From Candidatus Mcinerneyibacteriota bacterium (GTDB taxonomy: Bacteria; AUK180; JAQVHJ01), in contig DAOVMD010000195.1 of NCBI GenBank assembly GCA_030630935.1, forward strand, positions 1-6,211: DNA of 6,211 bases, in the 5' to 3' direction. Below, one piece after another: positions 1-6,211 of this stretch (the stretch's first letter is position 1; the number at the start of each line of letters is the position of its first letter). The notes under the pieces are model-generated. The model saw nothing but the letters and a program-made list of their open reading frames with translations, was not told the DNA's origin and did not search any database. A program made the translations under genes and the position numbers.

Positions 1-123
1 CTGTGAGGGGCGGTCGTTCTCACTATTAAATTTATGAGGACGACACGTCTACTCGACACTATATATGATAATGCTTTAATCTATAAAACAACTGCTCTCG
101 GTTCTCTGATATCTGCTCTCTAT

Positions 124-158
124 TCAAGCAACAGAGTTGCTTGAGAATGGGACATTCT
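124..158. repeat. Two overlapping hairpins, first with a perfect 9-bp stem
   Basis: TCAAGCAAC (124-132) pairs exactly with GTTGCTTGA (136-144) around the 3-nt loop AGA. A second perfect palindrome follows directly: AGAATG (144-149), loop GGA, CATTCT (153-158). The two share position 144. No run of T follows, so it is not an intrinsic terminator. It could be a mobile-element end, a REP-like palindrome or a structured RNA; the sequence does not decide between these. Confidence 0.55.
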
Positions 159-245
159 GTTAATGAAAAAGAGTAGCATTATTGATAAAACTTTCTTCTG
201 TCTCCAAAGAAATGTATTTTTCGAATTTCTCAAGAGTGTCCCATT
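146..245. repeat. Inverted repeat, 13 bp arms 74 nt apart
   Basis: AATGGGACATTCT (146-158) is the inverted complement of AGAGTGTCCCATT (233-245), with a single G-T pair. A further inverted pair, CTTGAGAA (140-147) and TTCTCAAG (227-234), overlaps these arms, but the order is crossed rather than nested. The enclosed 74 nt has no gene. It may be the remnant of a small nonautonomous mobile element or a noncoding RNA; no flanking target duplication is evident. Confidence 0.45.
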
Positions 246-257
246 AATCACTCCTTA

Positions 258-382
258 CGAAAGAAAACAAAAAATAAAAACAAAAGAAAAAAAAAGAAAA
301 AATATTTCTTCAGCAGGTTAACGACCGAAGGGAGGAAATCCCGTATAGAGAAGCGTATCGGGAGACTTTTACGAGACTTTTA
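258..382 (+). repeat. Composite repeat, copy A
   Basis: This is the most diverged of three clear copies of one element. It has an A-rich leader (258-302), then a 20-nt box at 306-325 matching the box of copies B and C at 17 of 20 positions, then GGGAGG and ATCCCG, an 11-nt variable middle (344-354), and GTATCGGGAGA (355-365). The tail holds GAGACTTTTA twice (362-371 and 373-382, period 11). TCCCG (339-343) can pair with CGGGA (359-363). It can also pair as TCCC with the upstream GGGA (330-333). It lies on the same strand as copies B and C and has no coding capacity. Confidence 0.75.
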
Positions 383-444
383 ATGGATTATTAAAATATT
401 GTTATGTTTGTTTAGAGCGAATGATATTTAAAGATTCGATTGAG

Positions 445-610
445 TGCAAAAAAATAAATTCTTTAGCAGGTCGACGACTGAAAGGAGGAGATCCCGCTCG
501 TACCGATGTGAATCCGGGATAAACTCCACGCATCGGGAGAACTTAAGAGTAAGGAACCACGTAGGGTTCCCTATTAAAAAACTAACGAAAACTAAGAAAA
601 ACAAAAAGAG
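445..610 (+). repeat. Composite repeat, copy B, interrupted by a 30-nt insert
   Basis: Two 20-nt blocks are identical to copy C: TTCTTTAGCAGGTCGACGAC (459-478) and GCATCGGGAGAACTTAAGAG (530-549). Between them the middle segment is 33 nt, against 9 nt in copy C and 11 nt in copy A, and includes an extra CCGGGA at 514-519. After 549 the similarity to copy C breaks for about 30 nt (550-579), then resumes with AACTAACGAAAACTAAG and an A-rich tail. Frames of about 60 codons on both strands cross this repeat; I regard them as chance. Confidence 0.75.
550..579. repeat. 30-nt hairpin insert within repeat copy B
   Basis: Relative to copy C, this segment is extra sequence inside the GAGAACT-type tail. 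It carries GGAACC (553-558) and GGTTCC (565-570), a perfect 6-bp stem around the loop ACGTAG. The GTAG tetranucleotide (561-564) sits in the loop. The GTAG-plus-palindrome make-up links it to the other hairpins of this window. Whether it was inserted into B or lost from C cannot be decided from two copies, but copy A also lacks it. Confidence 0.55.
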
Positions 611-665
611 CAAAATAAATATTAAATCTTGATCTACGGAACAACTATTCGCTATAAATTCTTTT

Positions 666-683
666 AAAATCGTTTACGATTTT
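666..683. repeat. Hairpin with TTTA loop
   Basis: AAAATCG (666-672) pairs exactly with CGATTTT (677-683) around the loop TTTA. It shares the core CGTTTACG with the hairpin at 742-753, while the flanking stem bases differ in a paired way (ATCG/CGAT against GCCG/CGGC). Confidence 0.55.
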
Positions 684-697
684 TATGAAAATGATGC

Positions 698-721
698 GTA
701 GCCTGGGGCTTCAGCCCTAGG
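698..721 (+). repeat. REP-like element: GTAG plus hairpin
   Basis: GTAG (698-701) is followed directly by CCTGGGGC (702-709), loop TTCA, and GCCCTAGG (714-721), an 8-bp stem with one G-T pair. A GTAG or similar tetranucleotide next to an imperfect palindrome is the known layout of REP elements mobilised by RAYT (REP-associated tyrosine transposases). No RAYT gene is in the window, so the assignment rests on architecture only. Confidence 0.55.
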
Positions 722-741
722 AAAAGGTTAGAAGAACATCC

Positions 742-753
742 GCCGTTTACGGC
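742..753. repeat. Short hairpin with TTTA loop
   Basis: GCCG (742-745) pairs with CGGC (750-753) around the loop TTTA. It is GC-rich within very AT-rich sequence and shares its loop with the hairpins at 666-683 and 826-845. Confidence 0.45.
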
Positions 754-790
754 TAGTATGAAAACAATAAAAAAAATAAAAACATTTTTA

Positions 791-808
791 ACAGGGATTA
801 TCCTGTAG
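791..808. repeat. REP-like hairpin with GTAG at its 3' edge
   Basis: ACAGG (791-795) pairs with CCTGT (802-806), and GTAG (805-808) overlaps the end of the stem. TCCTGTAGG (801-809) recurs exactly at 870-878, which suggests the two belong to one family. Confidence 0.4.
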
Positions 809-821
809 GAATAAAGTGATA

Positions 822-845
822 GTAGCCCCGCAATTTATTGCGGGG
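822..845 (+). repeat. REP-like element: GTAG plus perfect 8-bp hairpin
   Basis: GTAG (822-825) is followed directly by CCCCGCAA (826-833), loop TTTA, and TTGCGGGG (838-845). The stem is perfect and the most GC-rich structure of the left region. TTAGATTAAAA follows rather than a T run, so it is unlikely to be a terminator for + strand transcription. This is the cleanest REP-like unit in the window. Confidence 0.6.
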
Positions 846-866
846 TTAGATTAAAAAAAGACAGAA

Positions 867-886
867 CAGTCCTGTAGGGACGGCTG
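867..886. repeat. REP-like hairpin with GTAG in the loop
   Basis: GTCC (869-872) pairs with GGAC (878-881) around TGTAG, and outer CAG/CTG bases can extend the stem imperfectly. It shares TCCTGTAGG with the element at 801-809. An A-rich stretch and ATTTTTAACA (906-915) follow. Confidence 0.4.
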
Positions 887-918
887 AAAAAAAACAAGAA
901 AAAAGATTTTTAACAATG

Positions 919-943
919 ACAGGAGGAGACGTGTCCGGGATAA
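919..943 (+). repeat. Remnant of the composite repeat (copy D)
   Basis: GGAGGAGA (922-929) and TCCGGGATAA (934-943) match copy B at 484-491 and 513-522 in the same order, with the sequence between them shortened. The AGCAGG box and the AACTTAAGAG box of full copies are absent. The match is short and could be partly chance. Confidence 0.35.
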
Positions 944-1088
944 TTTAAAAACGGCTTAGTGAAATAATTTAATATTGTAAGGATTAACAAACAATAGCAG
1001 AGTTGGTTTATCACTTTATTGCATCACTCTATATTTGAAAAACATTTCATATGATAATAATAAAAAAACTCAGTAACTTAAAAAAATC

Positions 1089-1117
1089 TTGACATTAAGA
1101 GTTATCTATTGTATAAT
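1089..1117 (+). promoter_or_regulatory. Exact-consensus sigma-70 promoter for the barrel gene pair
   Basis: TTGACA (1089-1094) and TATAAT (1112-1117) are both perfect consensus hexamers with the optimal 17-nt spacer. An A-rich stretch directly upstream (1077-1086) resembles an UP element. Transcription should begin near 1124, giving a leader of about 125 nt before the ATG at 1249. This is the form used by most bacteria, not the TTTG / TAnnTTTG form of Bacteroidetes. A strong constitutive promoter suits an abundant outer-membrane protein. Confidence 0.85.
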
Positions 1118-1132
1118 TAAGTATTGTGTTGA

Positions 1133-1159
1133 ATATAATATAGTGTATGTATATTATAT
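1133..1159 (+). promoter_or_regulatory. 10-bp inverted repeat at the start of the leader
   Basis: ATATAATATA (1133-1142) pairs exactly with TATATTATAT (1150-1159) around a 7-nt loop. It starts about 9 nt after the expected transcription start. A 5'-terminal hairpin like this can protect an mRNA from decay; as DNA it could be an operator for a dimeric regulator. All pairs are A-T, so in RNA it would be only moderately stable. Confidence 0.45.
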
Positions 1160-1178
1160 ATATATTAACAAAGAAGTT

Positions 1179-1202
1179 CTTTAAAAGTTTTAAAGGAGGT
1201 GA
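1179..1202 (+). promoter_or_regulatory. Upstream Shine-Dalgarno sequence in a leader hairpin
   Basis: AAAGGAGGTGA (1192-1202) is a near-perfect complement of the 16S rRNA 3' end, yet no ATG, GTG or TTG lies at a proper distance. Only a CTG at 1211, opening a five-codon frame ending in TAA (1226-1228), is near. The palindrome CTTTAAAAGTTTTAAAG (1179-1195) abuts it and its last base is the first G of the motif. It could be a ribosome standby site, or the start of a tiny leader peptide. Confidence 0.5.
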
Positions 1203-1234
1203 AATTTAAACTGCAAATTTTACATTAACAAAAA

Positions 1235-1241
1235 AAGGAGG
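1235..1241 (+). promoter_or_regulatory. Ribosome-binding site of the first barrel gene
   Basis: AAGGAGG lies 7 nt before ATG 1249. This spacing favours the ATG over the in-frame TTG at 1246, which would be only 4 nt away. Confidence 0.85.
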
Positions 1242-1248
1242 CATCTTG

Positions 1249-2751
1249 ATGAAAAGAAGCTTAGCAGTTGTTTTTATTCTTGCACTTTTAGTAACAAGTG
1301 CATTTGGTTATTCATTGCGTATGGAGACGATGGGTCGTATCTCATATGCACTTGAAGATTTTGAAACTGATGTAATGCGGAATCCTGCTTGCATTTCAAA
1401 TCTTGATCAAAACTATTTCAGGTTATCTCTTGGTATGGAGGGTGCTGCAACAGAAATAGAGACCAAATATGATGAAGTAGCCGTCGGTAACTGGATAGGA
1501 AAAGGTTGGGATAACTGGGGCTATTCCAGTATGCCGATAAATATTCTTGGATTCTATAAGTTTGGCACTATTGCAATTGGCCTTCAGTTTGATATGCCGA
1601 GTGAGTCCTGGACTTATGAGCGCGGGACTGATGAAGCGCAAATCGGTGGAACTGACATTGAAATTGATAAATGGAACGATGAGTTTTCTCAAAGTATCAC
1701 AAATTTTGCTTTAACCTTAGGGTCAAAGTTTGGAAATTTTGCAGTTGGTTTAAATTTTGGTCAGACCAAACATATAGGTACATATACAGATGAATATCAA
1801 GAAGACGGAGAAGGAGTCTGGGATCATGATTGGGATAAGAATGAATCTGATCTTACAGCTGATAATACCTTCTATGGTTTTGGTTTAGTATACCCTACCG
1901 GTAAGCTGAAACTTGAATTTGCATATAAGATGTCAAGTGTATTAGTAGAAATTGAGGAGACCAAAGATGATGATTATGACAGCGCCACTGATACAACAAC
2001 AACGGGTGATGTTGCAGATCATGATATTTATCCTATTGAAGAGACTACTTTAGACAGCAGTTTAATTCATCTCATGGCAAAGTATAAATATACAGAAGAG
2101 ATTGATGCAACAGCTGTAGTTGGCATTATTGTTCATAATGCAGAGCCGGTAAGTAAGTATTCAACATTTCCTGACTTTACTAATACAGAAGTTGCAATTA
2201 ACCAAACCAATATTGGCTTTGCCGTAGGTTTCCATAAAGAGAAATACAAGTTTGGTATTGAGATGGACTATAATATGTTTGACCTTGAAGTATCTGAATA
2301 TCGTGTAGATACCTGGATTCCATGGGCTACATATAAGAGAACAGACATTACTGCTTCAGCAAAAATGATAATTTGGAAAGCCGGTGCAGAATATCAGGCG
2401 ATGGATAAATTAACATTAAGAGCCGGAGTTATTAAATATGCTCCACTTTCAGCAACAATGGAAGTTACTAATTATAATGCACTTGGAGAAATTACTAATA
2501 CCCAGGAAACGACTTATGACTTACTAAATACCGGAAATTTTATGGTTGCTTCTTTTGGTTTTGAATATAAACTTTCAAATCAGATGAGTCTTGAATATGG
2601 CTATATTGGTGGTAAAGCATTACTTAATCTTGATGCACTTACTCTCGTAACGGATCTTGGCGGTTATGCTTATTCATTTGATGAAGGTATAACAGCATTT
2701 ACTCCGATGTCATTTACGACTCATAAGTTCTCAATAAAGTATAACTTCTAA
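1249..2751 (+). CDS. Outer-membrane beta-barrel protein, FadL/PorV-like (paralog 1)
   Basis: The product is a 500-residue exported protein, probably an outer-membrane barrel. Residues 1-20 form a signal peptide: MKRS, a hydrophobic core, then cleavage after SAFG. The mature N-terminus reads YSLRMETMG, followed by ALEDFETDV and RNPA (44-47). This resembles the MGGAG...ALADD...NPA pattern at the start of FadL and PorV/PorQ-type barrels. Alternating hydrophobic and polar stretches rich in Tyr, Phe and Gly follow, separated by acidic Asp/Glu/Thr-rich segments that look like external loops (around residues 180-205 and 235-270). It ends in IKYNF, with the terminal Phe typical of barrel proteins recognised by BamA. 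The start is ATG 1249, 7 nt after AAGGAGG. It is first in an operon with a paralog 30 nt downstream. Substrate and exact family are not identifiable from sequence alone; a generic porin is the main alternative to a FadL/PorV-type protein. Confidence 0.8.
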   Translation: MKRSLAVVFILALLVTSAFGYSLRMETMGRISYALEDFETDVMRNPACISNLDQNYFRLSLGMEGAATEIETKYDEVAVGNWIGKGWDNWGYSSMPINILGFYKFGTIAIGLQFDMPSESWTYERGTDEAQIGGTDIEIDKWNDEFSQSITNFALTLGSKFGNFAVGLNFGQTKHIGTYTDEYQEDGEGVWDHDWDKNESDLTADNTFYGFGLVYPTGKLKLEFAYKMSSVLVEIEETKDDDYDSATDTTTTGDVADHDIYPIEETTLDSSLIHLMAKYKYTEEIDATAVVGIIVHNAEPVSKYSTFPDFTNTEVAINQTNIGFAVGFHKEKYKFGIEMDYNMFDLEVSEYRVDTWIPWATYKRTDITASAKMIIWKAGAEYQAMDKLTLRAGVIKYAPLSATMEVTNYNALGEITNTQETTYDLLNTGNFMVASFGFEYKLSNQMSLEYGYIGGKALLNLDALTLVTDLGGYAYSFDEGITAFTPMSFTTHKFSIKYNF

Positions 2752-2770
2752 TTATAATCATAAGGATAAT

Positions 2771-2774
2771 GGAG
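2771..2774 (+). promoter_or_regulatory. Ribosome-binding site supporting a CTG start
   Basis: GGAG lies 7 nt before CTG 2782, an ideal distance. It is 31 nt before the first in-frame ATG at 2806, too far to serve that codon. The site therefore decides in favour of the unusual start. Confidence 0.6.
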
Positions 2775-2781
2775 AAAATAT

Positions 2782-4275
2782 CTGAGTAAATTAGCAGTTA
2801 TTATAATGGCTTTAGGTCTTCTGTTTGTAGGAGCCTTTGGCTATTCATTAAGAATGGAAACAATGGGGTGTTTAACAATTGCCCTTGAGGATTTCGAGAC
2901 AGATGTTTCACGGAATCCTGCAAATATTACCACTCTTAACGAGAATTATTTAAGATTATCATTAGGTATGGAAAGTGCAGATTTAGTAATATCAGATAAA
3001 TGGGATGACATTGTTCCTAACTCTGAATATCAAACGACTAATACTGATTATTCTTATTTCAGTATGCCGATAAGTGTTCTCGGTTTCTATAAAATGGAAG
3101 CATTAGTAATAGGTCTCCAGTTTGATATGCCGAAAGAAACCTATACTTATAATTGGAAATCTGATTGGACACGGCATGGTCAGGAACTTACAAATTACGA
3201 AAATCAAACTCAAAATGATGAGATTGTCAGTAGTATTATCAATATGAATATTGTCCTTGGTTATCAGCTTGGTGAAATTGGAGTTGGAGTAAACTTCGGT
3301 CAGTTAAAAGATGAGTTTACTCTTACACATTCATATACACAGCTTTCCAGTGGTGGTGACACCTCCGAAGAAAGAGAGATTGGGGTTACAACCGATAATG
3401 CATTCTATGGTTTCGGAGCAACTTATCCAACAGGTAATATGGTAGTTGAATTTGCGTATAAAATGTCAACTTTAACAGGCGAAGGCGATTTTAAAAAGGT
3501 AGTTAATGATGGTATTGCAGAAGATCCAACTGATCGCGATGCTTACCCGCTTTTTTTAGCTGAAATTACAACTGATCTGATTCATCTAAAAGTAAAATAT
3601 AAATATACTAAAAATATTGATATTTCCTTTGGAATGGATATGACGACTACTGACCTTAAAGCCGATGTTGAAACAGCATCCTTACCGAAATTTTCACCTG
3701 TAGAAGGTTCACTTAAAGATAATAATATTATGTTTGGTATTGGTTTTCACGAAGATGCTTTTAACTTTGGTCTTGAATTAAATTATAATATGTTCACAGT
3801 TGAAGGAACAGGTTCTGATACCATAGGGAAATCAATGGAGGTTTCAGCCGATGCTAAAATGATAGTATTAAAGGCTGGTGCAGAGTACCAGGCTACCGAT
3901 AAACTCGCATTGAGAGTCGGTGCTTTAAAGTATGTACCTCTTAGTGGCTCAGACGAAAAGAAAGAGTTTGATCCAGCAACAGTAGAATTAGTTGATGCTG
4001 AGAAGTATACCGGTGACGTATTAAATACAAGTAACATGATTATTACTTCATTTGGTGTCGAGTATCAATTTAATAAACAGATGACATTAGAATATGGTTA
4101 TATTGGTGGTAAATACCTTTATAATCAGAATGCAATGAATTTAGTAGCCGAACTTGCTCCTTATGGTGTTGATACGGGATTCAGGATTTATAATGCTGTC
4201 ACGGGATTAGGGACGGCATTGTTTACCCCAATGTCATTCACAAAACATGTATTCTCAGTAAGATATAACTTCTAA
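2782..4275 (+). CDS. Outer-membrane beta-barrel protein, FadL/PorV-like (paralog 2), CTG start
   Basis: The product is 497 residues long when read from CTG 2782 and is a clear paralog of the upstream gene product. Shared blocks include GYSLRMETMG (20-29), ALEDFETDV, RNPA (44-47), LGFYK, IGLQFDMP, FYGFG..YPTG, EFAYKMS, KAGAEYQA.DKL.LR, LEYGYIGGK and a C-terminal FTPMSFT..H.FS..YNF. Differences concentrate in the polar, probably external, loops. Starting at CTG gives a signal peptide of exactly 20 residues (MSKLAVIIMA...GAFG) that aligns gap-free with paralog 1. Starting at ATG 2806 would leave only 12 residues with no positive charge. In-frame TAA at 2767 limits any further extension. It lies 30 nt after paralog 1 with no promoter between, so it is co-transcribed, and it ends 22 nt before a terminator. 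As for paralog 1, substrate and exact family are open. Confidence 0.8.
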   Translation: MSKLAVIIMALGLLFVGAFGYSLRMETMGCLTIALEDFETDVSRNPANITTLNENYLRLSLGMESADLVISDKWDDIVPNSEYQTTNTDYSYFSMPISVLGFYKMEALVIGLQFDMPKETYTYNWKSDWTRHGQELTNYENQTQNDEIVSSIINMNIVLGYQLGEIGVGVNFGQLKDEFTLTHSYTQLSSGGDTSEEREIGVTTDNAFYGFGATYPTGNMVVEFAYKMSTLTGEGDFKKVVNDGIAEDPTDRDAYPLFLAEITTDLIHLKVKYKYTKNIDISFGMDMTTTDLKADVETASLPKFSPVEGSLKDNNIMFGIGFHEDAFNFGLELNYNMFTVEGTGSDTIGKSMEVSADAKMIVLKAGAEYQATDKLALRVGALKYVPLSGSDEKKEFDPATVELVDAEKYTGDVLNTSNMIITSFGVEYQFNKQMTLEYGYIGGKYLYNQNAMNLVAELAPYGVDTGFRIYNAVTGLGTALFTPMSFTKHVFSVRYNF

Positions 4276-4297
4276 TTTTATCTGAAAGGAAATCTTT

Positions 4298-4334
4298 GGG
4301 CGCAAGGATTTTTCTTTGCGCCCTTTTTATTTTT
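4298..4334 (+). terminator. Intrinsic terminator after the barrel gene pair
   Basis: GGGCGCAAGGA (4298-4308) pairs with TCTTTGCGCCC (4313-4323), an 11-bp stem with one G-T pair and the loop TTTT. TTTTTATTTTT (4324-4334) follows. This is a textbook strong rho-independent terminator. It ends the operon of the two barrel genes and lies only 11 nt before the ATG of the phosphoesterase gene. Confidence 0.9.
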
Positions 4335-4345
4335 AATTGAGAACT

Positions 4346-5929
4346 ATGATCATATCAAAAAAAACAATTAGATTTATCTTAATATCTCTTATCTTTATAC
4401 TTCAGGTTTCAGTATTTGGTTATGAACCTTTTGAAAGAATTGAGTTGTTCTCAGTCGGAGTTGATAATGTAATAATTTCTTACGAGACACACGACCCTTC
4501 GGATACTATTATAAAATATGGAACATTGTCAACAAATCTTGATTCAGAATTTAAAATTAATAACTCAACTTTATTTCATTATGCAGAGATAACAGGCCTT
4601 ATTCCTGAAACACATTATTATTTCCGGATTGAAGATAGTCTTGGAAATGCAGCAGAAGTGGATGAGTTTACAACGTTTAAAGACCCGGGGAATTATTTAT
4701 TCTCTTTTGGAGTATTTGCTGATCTTCACCATACTTTTAATCAACCGGATGATCTTTCAACAGGTTACCTGTTTGGGCATGCAGATTTTTTCCTAAATAA
4801 TTTAAAGAATGATTTTTCAAGGAACACTTCTTCGTTCATAATTTTAAAAGGTGACATTACTAATGACGGAACACAGGAACAGTTTGATGATTTTATCCTG
4901 TTTACAAGTACACCGGGGTTTGATTCAACTTTATATTCTGTAATCGGGAATCATGATAAAAGAACTGCATATTGGGAAACTGCATTCTTGAGCTTGACAT
5001 CAACCGGGGCAACAAATTATTCAATTAACTATTCAAGCTGGCACTTTATAATCCTGGATTCTGCAATTGAAGGAGATGATGCGGGACATTTCAGTGAAGA
5101 GACTCTTTTATTTCTTGAGAATGACCTTAATTTAAATAAAGGGAAGAAGACTTTAATTTTTATTCACCATCTGGTTAATCCAATACGGGGAGTAACAGAT
5201 AATCCTTATTTAGACGGCAGCTCTCTCCTTGCGGATAATTATCAGGAATTTAAAAATGTTCTTGACAACTATCCAAATGTCTGGATAGTCTTCTCCGGAC
5301 ATGCACACTTCAATGATGTTTCATTTGACAGAGGTGTTTTATATGTAGTCTCAGCTTCTGTGATTCATTATCCATGTCAGTATAATATTGTTCATATCTA
5401 TGAAAATGCTGTTGTCCAGGAAGCAAGGAAGGTCAGTAACTCAATATCATGGAGCGAGATCTCAAGGCAAGCAATATATGATTGGGTAGAAGCAAATTAT
5501 GGTTTCCTGGGTGATGATATCCCTGATCAGGTTGTTGATGGAATATACGGTGAATTGAAAGACAGATGCTTCCTTTATATTCAGGGTGAATACTATGACC
5601 CGGTTCGCAGAGATGAAAATAAAATAAAAGTTTACCCTAACCCGGTTAAACAAACAACTAAGATTAATTTTGAAATGGAGTTTAAAAAGTTTGAAAAGAT
5701 ACTGGGAACGAAACTGATGATATTTGATATCTCAGGAAAAAAAATATTCTCAGGGAATAATCTAAATACTCAAATAGTTAGTTTCTCACCATTTAAAATA
5801 AAAATTGTCCTGGATATAAATACAGACCTCGATAAAAAACCCGCCTCAGGAATTTATATTTATATATTGAAAGTAAAAACTTCTCAGAATGAATTTGACT
5901 ATTCCGGTAAGATCGCATTTATAAAATAA
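4346..5929 (+). CDS. Secreted metallophosphoesterase with FN3-like domain and T9SS sorting tail
   Basis: The product is a 527-residue exported hydrolase. Residues 1-25 form a signal peptide ending in SVFG. Residues 28-115 resemble the fibronectin-III-like N-terminal domain of purple acid phosphatases (IKYGT, YAEITGLIPETHYYFRI). Residues 118-350 are a calcineurin-like metallophosphoesterase with all metal-binding motifs: D126-L-H128, G169-D170, GNHD (201-204), H274/H275 and GHAH (318-321). The DxH first motif, and GDITN in place of GDxxY, make it closer to CpdA/Icc-type phosphodiesterases than to true purple acid phosphatases. Residues 350-425 are unassigned. Residues 426-527 are a type IX secretion C-terminal sorting domain (KVYPNPVKQ, MIFDISGKKIFSG, SGIYIYILKV), so it is probably exported across the outer membrane and attached to the surface or released. 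Substrate unknown. I chose ATG 4346 over TTG 4337, which lacks a ribosome-binding site; the ATG also has only a weak GAGA at 4339-4342. Confidence 0.9.
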   Translation: MIISKKTIRFILISLIFILQVSVFGYEPFERIELFSVGVDNVIISYETHDPSDTIIKYGTLSTNLDSEFKINNSTLFHYAEITGLIPETHYYFRIEDSLGNAAEVDEFTTFKDPGNYLFSFGVFADLHHTFNQPDDLSTGYLFGHADFFLNNLKNDFSRNTSSFIILKGDITNDGTQEQFDDFILFTSTPGFDSTLYSVIGNHDKRTAYWETAFLSLTSTGATNYSINYSSWHFIILDSAIEGDDAGHFSEETLLFLENDLNLNKGKKTLIFIHHLVNPIRGVTDNPYLDGSSLLADNYQEFKNVLDNYPNVWIVFSGHAHFNDVSFDRGVLYVVSASVIHYPCQYNIVHIYENAVVQEARKVSNSISWSEISRQAIYDWVEANYGFLGDDIPDQVVDGIYGELKDRCFLYIQGEYYDPVRRDENKIKVYPNPVKQTTKINFEMEFKKFEKILGTKLMIFDISGKKIFSGNNLNTQIVSFSPFKIKIVLDINTDLDKKPASGIYIYILKVKTSQNEFDYSGKIAFIK

Positions 5930-5990
5930 TAGTTTCACTGCGTTCCACATTTATGATTTATGGTTGATAATTATTAATTGAAGATTAATT

Positions 5991-6011
5991 TGCATTATAT
6001 ATTACAATGCA
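5991..6011. repeat. Inverted repeat abutting a GTAG hairpin
   Basis: TGCATT (5991-5996) is the inverted complement of AATGCA (6006-6011) with a 9-nt spacer. The second arm directly abuts GTAG (6012-6015) of the next hairpin. Confidence 0.35.
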
Positions 6012-6033
6012 GTAGGGGCGAAGGCCTTTGCCC
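6012..6033 (+). repeat. REP-like element: GTAG plus hairpin
   Basis: GTAG (6012-6015) is followed directly by GGGCGAA (6016-6022), loop GGCC, and TTTGCCC (6027-6033), a 7-bp stem with one G-T pair. The layout matches the units at 698-721 and 822-845, on the other side of the gene cluster. It could slow or partly end transcription from the phosphoesterase gene, but no T run follows. Confidence 0.55.
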
Positions 6034-6057
6034 TGATCATAAGAAATAAGACACCCA

Positions 6058-6211
6058 TACGAAAAAAATAAAACAAACAAAAGAAAATAAAAATAATATT
6101 TCTTTAGCAGGTCGACGACCGAAGGGAAGTCATCCCGACACGAAGTGCATCGGGAGAACTTAAGAGAACTGACGAGAACTAAAACAAAAAAAAAGAACAA
6201 AAATTTTAACA
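6058..6211 (+). repeat. Composite repeat, copy C, possibly cut by the window end
   Basis: This is the least disturbed copy. It has an A-rich leader (6058-6096), the 20-nt box at 6100-6119 identical to copy B, GGGAAGTCATCCCG (6124-6137), a 9-nt middle, and a second block (6147-6166) identical to copy B. It ends in an A-rich tail and AATTTTAACA (6202-6211). TCCCG (6133-6137) can pair with CGGGA (6151-6155), with CAC/GTG inside. GAGAACT occurs three times at an exact 10-nt period (6154, 6164, 6174). All copies face the same way as the genes. Confidence 0.8.

Follow-up and report, generated by a model that had tools for sequence, protein, structure and literature searches.

A composite hairpin repeat in the intergenic DNA of a Candidatus Mcinerneyibacteriota genome

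The systems closest to the repeat described here are the BOX elements of Streptococcus pneumoniae, composite boxA-boxB(n)-boxC intergenic repeats that are non-autonomous and likely parasitic (PMC3049150), and the GTAG/CGTC-tagged REPs and BIMEs, intergenic hairpins present in many copies, each with a short tag at its 5′ foot (PMC3733652). The stretch that we analysed, called the window in what follows, comprises 6,211 nucleotides (nt) of Candidatus Mcinerneyibacteriota bacterium DNA (contig DAOVMD010000195.1, positions 1 to 6,211; C402 in our numbering of the host genome, G000) and contains three copies of a dispersed element in which two constant boxes enclose a variable middle. The host genome is a metagenome-assembled genome (MAG) of 3.16 Mb in 471 contigs, 80% complete. 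We take the element for a new family of composite intergenic repeat, a kind already known, and a literature search of titles and abstracts returned no description of it. On balance, we think it rather probable that it is a lineage-specific, composite and non-autonomous intergenic hairpin repeat, BOX/REP-like, which was added to older scaffolds and then shuffled by recombination.

The repeat unit and its folding

The three copies lie on the plus strand at 313-365 (A), 466-540 (B) and 6107-6157 (C), with the boxes that a first-pass annotation of the window had described: the 5′ box TTCTTTAGCAGGTCGACGAC is identical in B and C and matches at 17 of 20 positions in A, and the 3′ box region GCATCGGGAGAACTTAAGAG is also identical in B and C. 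In each copy the 5′ box, from GCAGG to ATCCCG (313-343, 466-496 and 6107-6137), is followed by the middle and by the 3′ box ATCGGGAGA (357-365, 532-540 and 6149-6157). The middle, taken from TCCCG to ATCGGGAGA, measures 13 nt in A (TATAGAGAAGCGT, 344-356), 35 nt in B (CTCGTACC..CCACGC, 497-531, with a CCGATGTGAATCCGGGATAAACTCC hairpin module nested inside) and 11 nt in C (ACACGAAGTGC, 6138-6148, a CAC(GAA)GTG mini-hairpin). The whole unit can be written (A)|GCAGG-H1-H2-CGGGAGA|, where H1 and H2 are two adjacent hairpins, and it carries no open reading frame (ORF). When the 31-nt 5′ box was searched for with up to three mismatches, 43 places were found in the host MAG (23 forward and 20 reverse) and none with the reversed pattern as control; a covariance model built on 45 copies, with E values of 3e-28, 5e-24 and 9e-25 for copies A, B and C, found about 116 places at E<1e-6, so that the repeat extends well beyond the three places in which it was first noticed. 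The detailed comparisons were made on 653 kb of copy-bearing contigs, from which 108 copies, 99 of them full length, were extracted.

The 5′ hairpin, H1, is supported by strong covariation. Counting the G of GCAGG as 0, its positions pair in the register i / 30-i as G3-C27, G4·T26, T5-A25, Y6-R24, G7·A23, A8·G22, C9-G21, G10·A20, A11·G19, C12-G18 and C13-G17, so that the stem includes two tandem G·A steps, and about 60% of the copies have a GNA triloop; copy A (316-340) reads GGTT aa C ga CC GAA GG ga G ga AATC. Pair 6-24 was C-G 64 times, T-A 26 times and T·G 13 times, pair 8-22 was A·G, C-G and G·T (82, 11 and 11), pair 12-18 was C-G, T-A and A·A (57, 13 and 25), and C-G was accompanied by T-A at 9-21 (94 and 3) and at 13-17 (98 and 4), where copy B (469-493) has the T-A, a compensatory change; copy C (6110-6134) was covered by the same analysis. 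In average-product-corrected (APC) mutual information computed blind to structure, 8-22, 12-18, 13-17 and 6-24 are among the five strongest column pairs, and the mean for the i+j=30 register is 0.057 versus 0.008 for the next one, a sevenfold difference. Over 74 distinct boxes, copy A included, 91.5% of the cells pair, and double changes occupy 28 cells compared with 11.9 ± 2.6 after shuffling, a number reached in none of 500 shuffles; these shuffles leave relatedness in place, and a slid-partner control, which retains it as well, gave far lower values. Moreover, G·T is accepted above A·C (30 versus 16 cells, nominal p 0.03). Read from the opposite strand, the fixed mismatches G·A and G·T would become T·C and C·A; on both grounds the plus strand is probably the one that folds.

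The second hairpin, H2, consists of a TCCCG/CGGGA stem around a hypervariable, nested loop, into which other hairpin modules are taken up; in copy A it spans 339-363, where TCCCG at 339-343 pairs with CGGGA at 359-363. The pairing is retained in 42-45 of 45 copies and, nearly invariant as it is, is consistent with a stem. The first-pass annotation had proposed two exclusive folds, in which ATCCCG would pair either with this downstream CGGGA or with an upstream GGGA. The downstream pairing is kept. The upstream fold was rejected, since about 40% of the copies have A in place of the second G of GGGA, with no compensation; the fold conserved upstream is H1. Within the H2 loop there is often a C(GAA)G mini-hairpin, with arms that change in concert as ACAC/GTGC, ACGC/GCGT and ATGC/GCAT (p 0.0015 versus shuffled halves). 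RNAalifold, run on 45 copies, returned just the invariant TCCCG/CGGGA stem, in which nothing covaries; it missed H1, probably because of the G·A steps, and H1 was detected by the position-by-position analysis. Standard energy folding did not single the units out, the energy of the whole unit being no better than that of shuffles in most copies. As a separate observation, C(GAA)G triloop hairpins with a stem of at least 4, counted with the element copies unmasked, number 38 in 139 kb of intergenic DNA of the analysed contigs versus 3.8 expected, and 19 in 512 kb of coding DNA; C(GNA)G hairpins, counted in the same way, number 84 versus 8.8.

Only the left end of the unit is really sharp. Conservation jumps at A|GCAGG, reaching 93-100% per base across the first six letters, and the tag at the foot of H1 is GCAG in nearly all copies and GTAG in one (L079). 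On the right side ATCGGGAGA is 94-100% conserved, up to the end CGGGAGA, and is followed by three divergent tail types, ACTKAAGAGAACTRACGAG, CTTTTACGAGACTTGTAATGG and TGGACGGGATTGACGGGATG, labelled t1, t2 and t3. The conserved pairing and conserved ends that the first-pass annotation had presupposed do exist. In the window the flanks are A-rich, as it had also stated: copies A and C follow leaders at 258-312 (ending in TTTCTTCA) and 6060-6106 (ending in TTTCTTTA), delimited by the flank profile; copy A continues into a t2 tail at 366-458 (CTTTTACGAGACTTTTAATGG...GAGTGCAAAA), a scaffold module that is found without the core too, and copy B into a t1 tail at 541-604, with an A-rich end and an embedded GTAG-tagged hairpin (CGTAGGGTTCCCTA, at about 559-573), and the t1 tail of copy C at 6158-6211 (ACTTAAGAGAACTGACGAGAACT, A-rich end) runs into TTTTAACA of the next module. 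A-richness is not a constant trait, however: the letters before the left end of the 99 full copies are TTCTTTA in 39, TTCTTCA in 33, GAGAATA in 10 and others in 17, and about 10 copies follow TTGAGAATA instead of TTCTTYA. The flanking target duplications that had been suggested as a check were looked for, and none of defined length or offset was found, flank identity being just marginally above shuffled; nor are there terminal inverted repeats, GCAGG and CGGGAGA not being inverted repeats of each other. A candidate terminal stem, CTTYAG/CTRAAG, was rejected, the complementarity being limited to copies with a t1 tail and no clear covariation being seen on inspection.

Modules, scaffolds and genomic distribution

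Box, middle, tail and leader assort almost freely. One identical 26-nt box occurs in 14 copies with 14 different middles and 3 tail types, a second identical box in ten copies with ten middles, and identical middles recur with different boxes and tails; most module pairs show near-zero mutual information, the exception, within the box, being the 6-24 pair. The middles are drawn from a small set, namely one or two ATAGNGAAGCG units, CAC(GAA)GTG, TTTT loops, a CCCCGAAAAAACGGGG or CCCGAAGTGAATTCGGGATAAACTCC hairpin, and a TTGAGTTTACCCCGATNNNTCGGGG insert preceding the hairpin. Copying of the whole unit is rare, an example being copy C, whose near-identical partner, tail included, lies at G000:C428:9366-9438. 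Neighbouring copies less than 600 nt apart are arranged head-to-tail in 20 of 20 pairs. Readings as integron attC sites, CRISPR arrays or guide RNAs were ruled out, as the middles are recurring hairpin motifs, the spacers, at an inter-copy spacing of 100-405 nt, are themselves repeat modules, and the repeats vary.

The tails also occur in core-less scaffolds, in which a short head, (A-rich)TTTAACAGGGA, stands directly before them; the copy-bearing contigs hold 14 of these with t1, 32 with t2 and 10 with t3. The short-head t2 scaffold was found 48 times in G000 and 7 times in G001, a 72% complete genome of the sister genus that is without the core, and the t1 scaffold only in the host genome among the eight searched. 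Given short-head t2 scaffolds in core-free G001, the simplest view is that the scaffold is the older part and that the core was added to it in this lineage. At several loci a subfamily GCAAGTCTGCGACC...ATCGGGATAA (GCAAGTC) combines both hairpins with flanks that differ on either side; together with the copies preceded by TTGAGAATA, it indicates that the core can occupy sites outside the usual scaffold. These observations bear on an account to which we give tentative credence, namely that ectopic gene conversion or template switching was enough to spread the element: the hairpin head would have arisen once and been copied among scaffolds through the A-rich leader and tail that these have in common, no transposase being involved. 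It would explain why the element always has the orientation of the scaffold, makes no target-site duplication and has freely assorted modules, and it agrees with the abundance of core-less scaffolds carrying the same tails and with a scaffold older than the core; the copies that follow the unrelated TTGAGAATA module and the doubly different flanks of the GCAAGTC subfamily are what it accommodates poorly.

Within the host genome the copies are intergenic and on both strands; 5 lie within ORFs of at least 100 codons, which look like chance ORFs. A contig end is found within 300 nt of 39 of 107 copies (36%, versus 7.5% expected): the assembly breaks on the repeats, so the copy number is a lower bound, and the repeats help explain the fragmentation of the host MAG. 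Beyond the host, a DNA search of 59 other genomes did not find the element, which was also searched for in plasmids, phages and viral contigs and found in none. A model search of nine genomes gave one strong match and otherwise weak ones only; the weak matches carry no recognisable element, and several of them are coding-like. The latter, also the sole match in GTDB, is a contig of 'Bacteroidota bacterium CSMAG_443' (L048, JAUVJB010000080.1), 72% identical to the host genome in its left half and 94% in its right half, which is best read as a chimera and was therefore not used as an insertion event. On this contig alaS and a truncated M23 peptidase are fused exactly at the left end of the element to sequence 94% identical to the host genome. 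Beside a 94%-identical aminotransferase, the intergenic content is wholly different in G000 and in the relative, and the element is present in the relative only.

With respect to genes, convergent contexts (17) outnumber divergent ones (6), the element thus avoiding promoters, a point counted in favour of a passenger repeat of the BOX/REP kind; in tandem contexts it has no strand preference ((+,+) 12 versus (-,-) 11). The excess of convergent contexts, and the T-rich sequence that follows on the minus strand, would also suit an intrinsic terminator or insulator between convergent genes. We regard this as very improbable, because the T-rich tract does not adjoin a stable stem, many copies sit in tandem or divergent contexts, and some neighbouring genes have terminators of their own, as the aminotransferase in L119. 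The same gene-end preference, together with the covariation of H1, its tolerance of G·T above A·C and its fixed G·A and G·T mismatches, might point to a functional structured RNA family transcribed from the plus strand, e.g., a 3′-untranslated-region stabiliser or a small RNA. Such a role is improbable, mainly because of the random orientation with respect to genes and the lack of conservation beyond the lineage; in addition, H2 is hypervariable, the whole unit does not fold better than shuffles in most copies, and Rfam gave no match on the window element at E<=1 and none at gathering score in five loci. Two sub-threshold Rfam matches in the window, both outside the units, were discarded: a PreQ1-like one at 557-591, below gathering score, and an Acido-Lenti-1-like one at 694-721 on the minus strand, with 27.7 bits versus a gathering score of 37.

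Other features of the window can be described briefly. The Acido-Lenti-1 match overlaps one of several GTAG-tagged hairpins resembling RAYT-type REPs (559-573, 694-721, 823-848, 872-884 and 6011-6039; GTAGCCTGGGGCTTCAGCCCTAGG, GTAGCCCCGCAATTTATTGCGGGG, GTAGGGGCGAAGGCCTTTGCCC and others); REP-like repeats may be among the members of that Rfam family. A second dispersed hairpin repeat, TATCTGTTCTCTGTTCAAGCAACAGAGTTGCTTGAGAAT, occupies 108-148 and recurs at L073, L074, L080, L095, L102 and L107; it stands immediately 5′ of certain copies of the element (TTGAGAATA|GCAGG), and its continuation in the window is a different one, GGGACATTC. Weak Pfam matches identify tandem paralogous outer-membrane beta-barrel (porin/OMPP1-like) genes at 1249-2751 and 2806-4275 and, after them at 4346-5929, a calcineurin-like phosphoesterase whose C-terminus bears a type IX secretion signal.

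How the repeat may have spread

The preferred reading, an intergenic hairpin repeat added to older scaffolds, can be put as follows. In the host lineage the unit would have been added to pre-existing A-rich/CAGGGA scaffolds, in the orientation of the scaffold and without target duplication: a Y1 protein may have transposed it in trans as a single-stranded hairpin, or conversion between scaffolds may have copied it; later, direct-repeat recombination and hairpin-driven template switching may have shuffled the tails and rewritten the H2 loop. Rather than a regulator, the repeat is most probably a passenger, selfish or neutral, whose presence downstream of genes is tolerated. Of the first-pass suggestion of a structured mobile unit or noncoding RNA, there remain a covarying structure and a dispersed, lineage-specific and repeatedly added unit, whereas target duplication and a match in Rfam are missing.

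The host genome encodes three Y1 (HUH) candidates, one IS200-type TnpA and two RAYT-like proteins. The IS200-type TnpA gene (L045 740-1207, G000:C247) has, in place of its C-terminal part, a tandem hairpin repeat that stays in frame, KISLLQSYKDIALTELQRYRSY... If an IS200/IS605 TnpA or a RAYT-like Y1 protein mobilised the element in trans, as a non-autonomous single-stranded DNA hairpin in the manner of REP or PATE, it would be hairpin-based and free of terminal inverted repeats and target-site duplications, as it is; the fixed TTYA/AATA-like letters preceding the left end and the GCAG at the foot of H1, which resembles the GTAG tag of REPs, would also fit. As the sole route this is doubtful, given that the element does not flank the Y1 genes and forms no inverted pairs, that the two RAYT-like proteins score under the RAYT cut-off, and that the remaining enzyme has the altered C-terminal end just mentioned. 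A bolder reading, which we consider a long shot, has a dedicated enzyme, of the host or of the element, that would recognise plus-strand H1, with its tandem G·A steps and GNA triloop, as single-stranded DNA and install H1-H2 one-way at CAG|GGA, rewriting the H2 loop at each copying; copies that share a box would thus nearly all differ in their middles, and the repeat would be orientation-locked and self-diversifying.

Several points weigh against the addition of a mobile unit to older scaffolds. No copy lies within the 2-3 kb surrounding the three Y1 genes, and GTAG REPs occur mostly as inverted pairs while copies of the element are never inverted. There is no simple match between empty site and target, the short head ACAGGGA differing from the product of a clean excision. 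The core may be absent from G001 through loss, both genomes being incomplete, and the evidence of turnover comes from one site, on the chimeric contig. By GC skew, which here mostly follows gene strand, no replichore bias was seen (62 of 108 copies).

The family offers a countable case of the evolution of small intergenic repeats: its folded head is conserved, its middle can be exchanged, and relatives of its scaffold that lack the core exist in the host and in a sister genome. It separates two questions commonly mixed in REP and BOX work, namely what is copied and what is shuffled later, and it provides, in the tandem G·A/GNA hairpin, a definite ligand for testing with Y1 transposases.

Comparison with known repeats

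The element is small, non-coding and possibly mobilised in trans like a MITE, but MITEs have terminal inverted repeats and target-site duplications (PMC3733652), and it has neither. With REPs and BIMEs it shares the high-copy intergenic hairpin, the foot tag, the mosaic intergenic regions, the preference for gene ends and the nesting of repeats (PMC3733652); it differs from them in having GCAG as its tag instead of GTAG, two different hairpins per unit, 0 of 20 pairs inverted, no flanking RAYT and tandem G·A steps in the 5′ hairpin. Since the tests that define REPs and MITEs gave negative results, the element was filed in neither family. As a mosaic of short modules in intergenic DNA it also recalls the Neisserial intergenic mosaic elements (NIMEs, named in PMC3049150). 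In architecture it is like BOX, in which the 5′ and 3′ modules are constant while the middle varies or is multiplied, and which also has hairpins and clusters with other repeats (PMC3049150): single or double ATAGNGAAGCG units and nested hairpins are found between the constant boxes. The likeness is one of architecture, the host being unrelated and no sequence relation expected and, compared with BOX, the element takes its middles from several unrelated hairpin modules, its copies always run head-to-tail, and its A-rich scaffolds exist without the unit.

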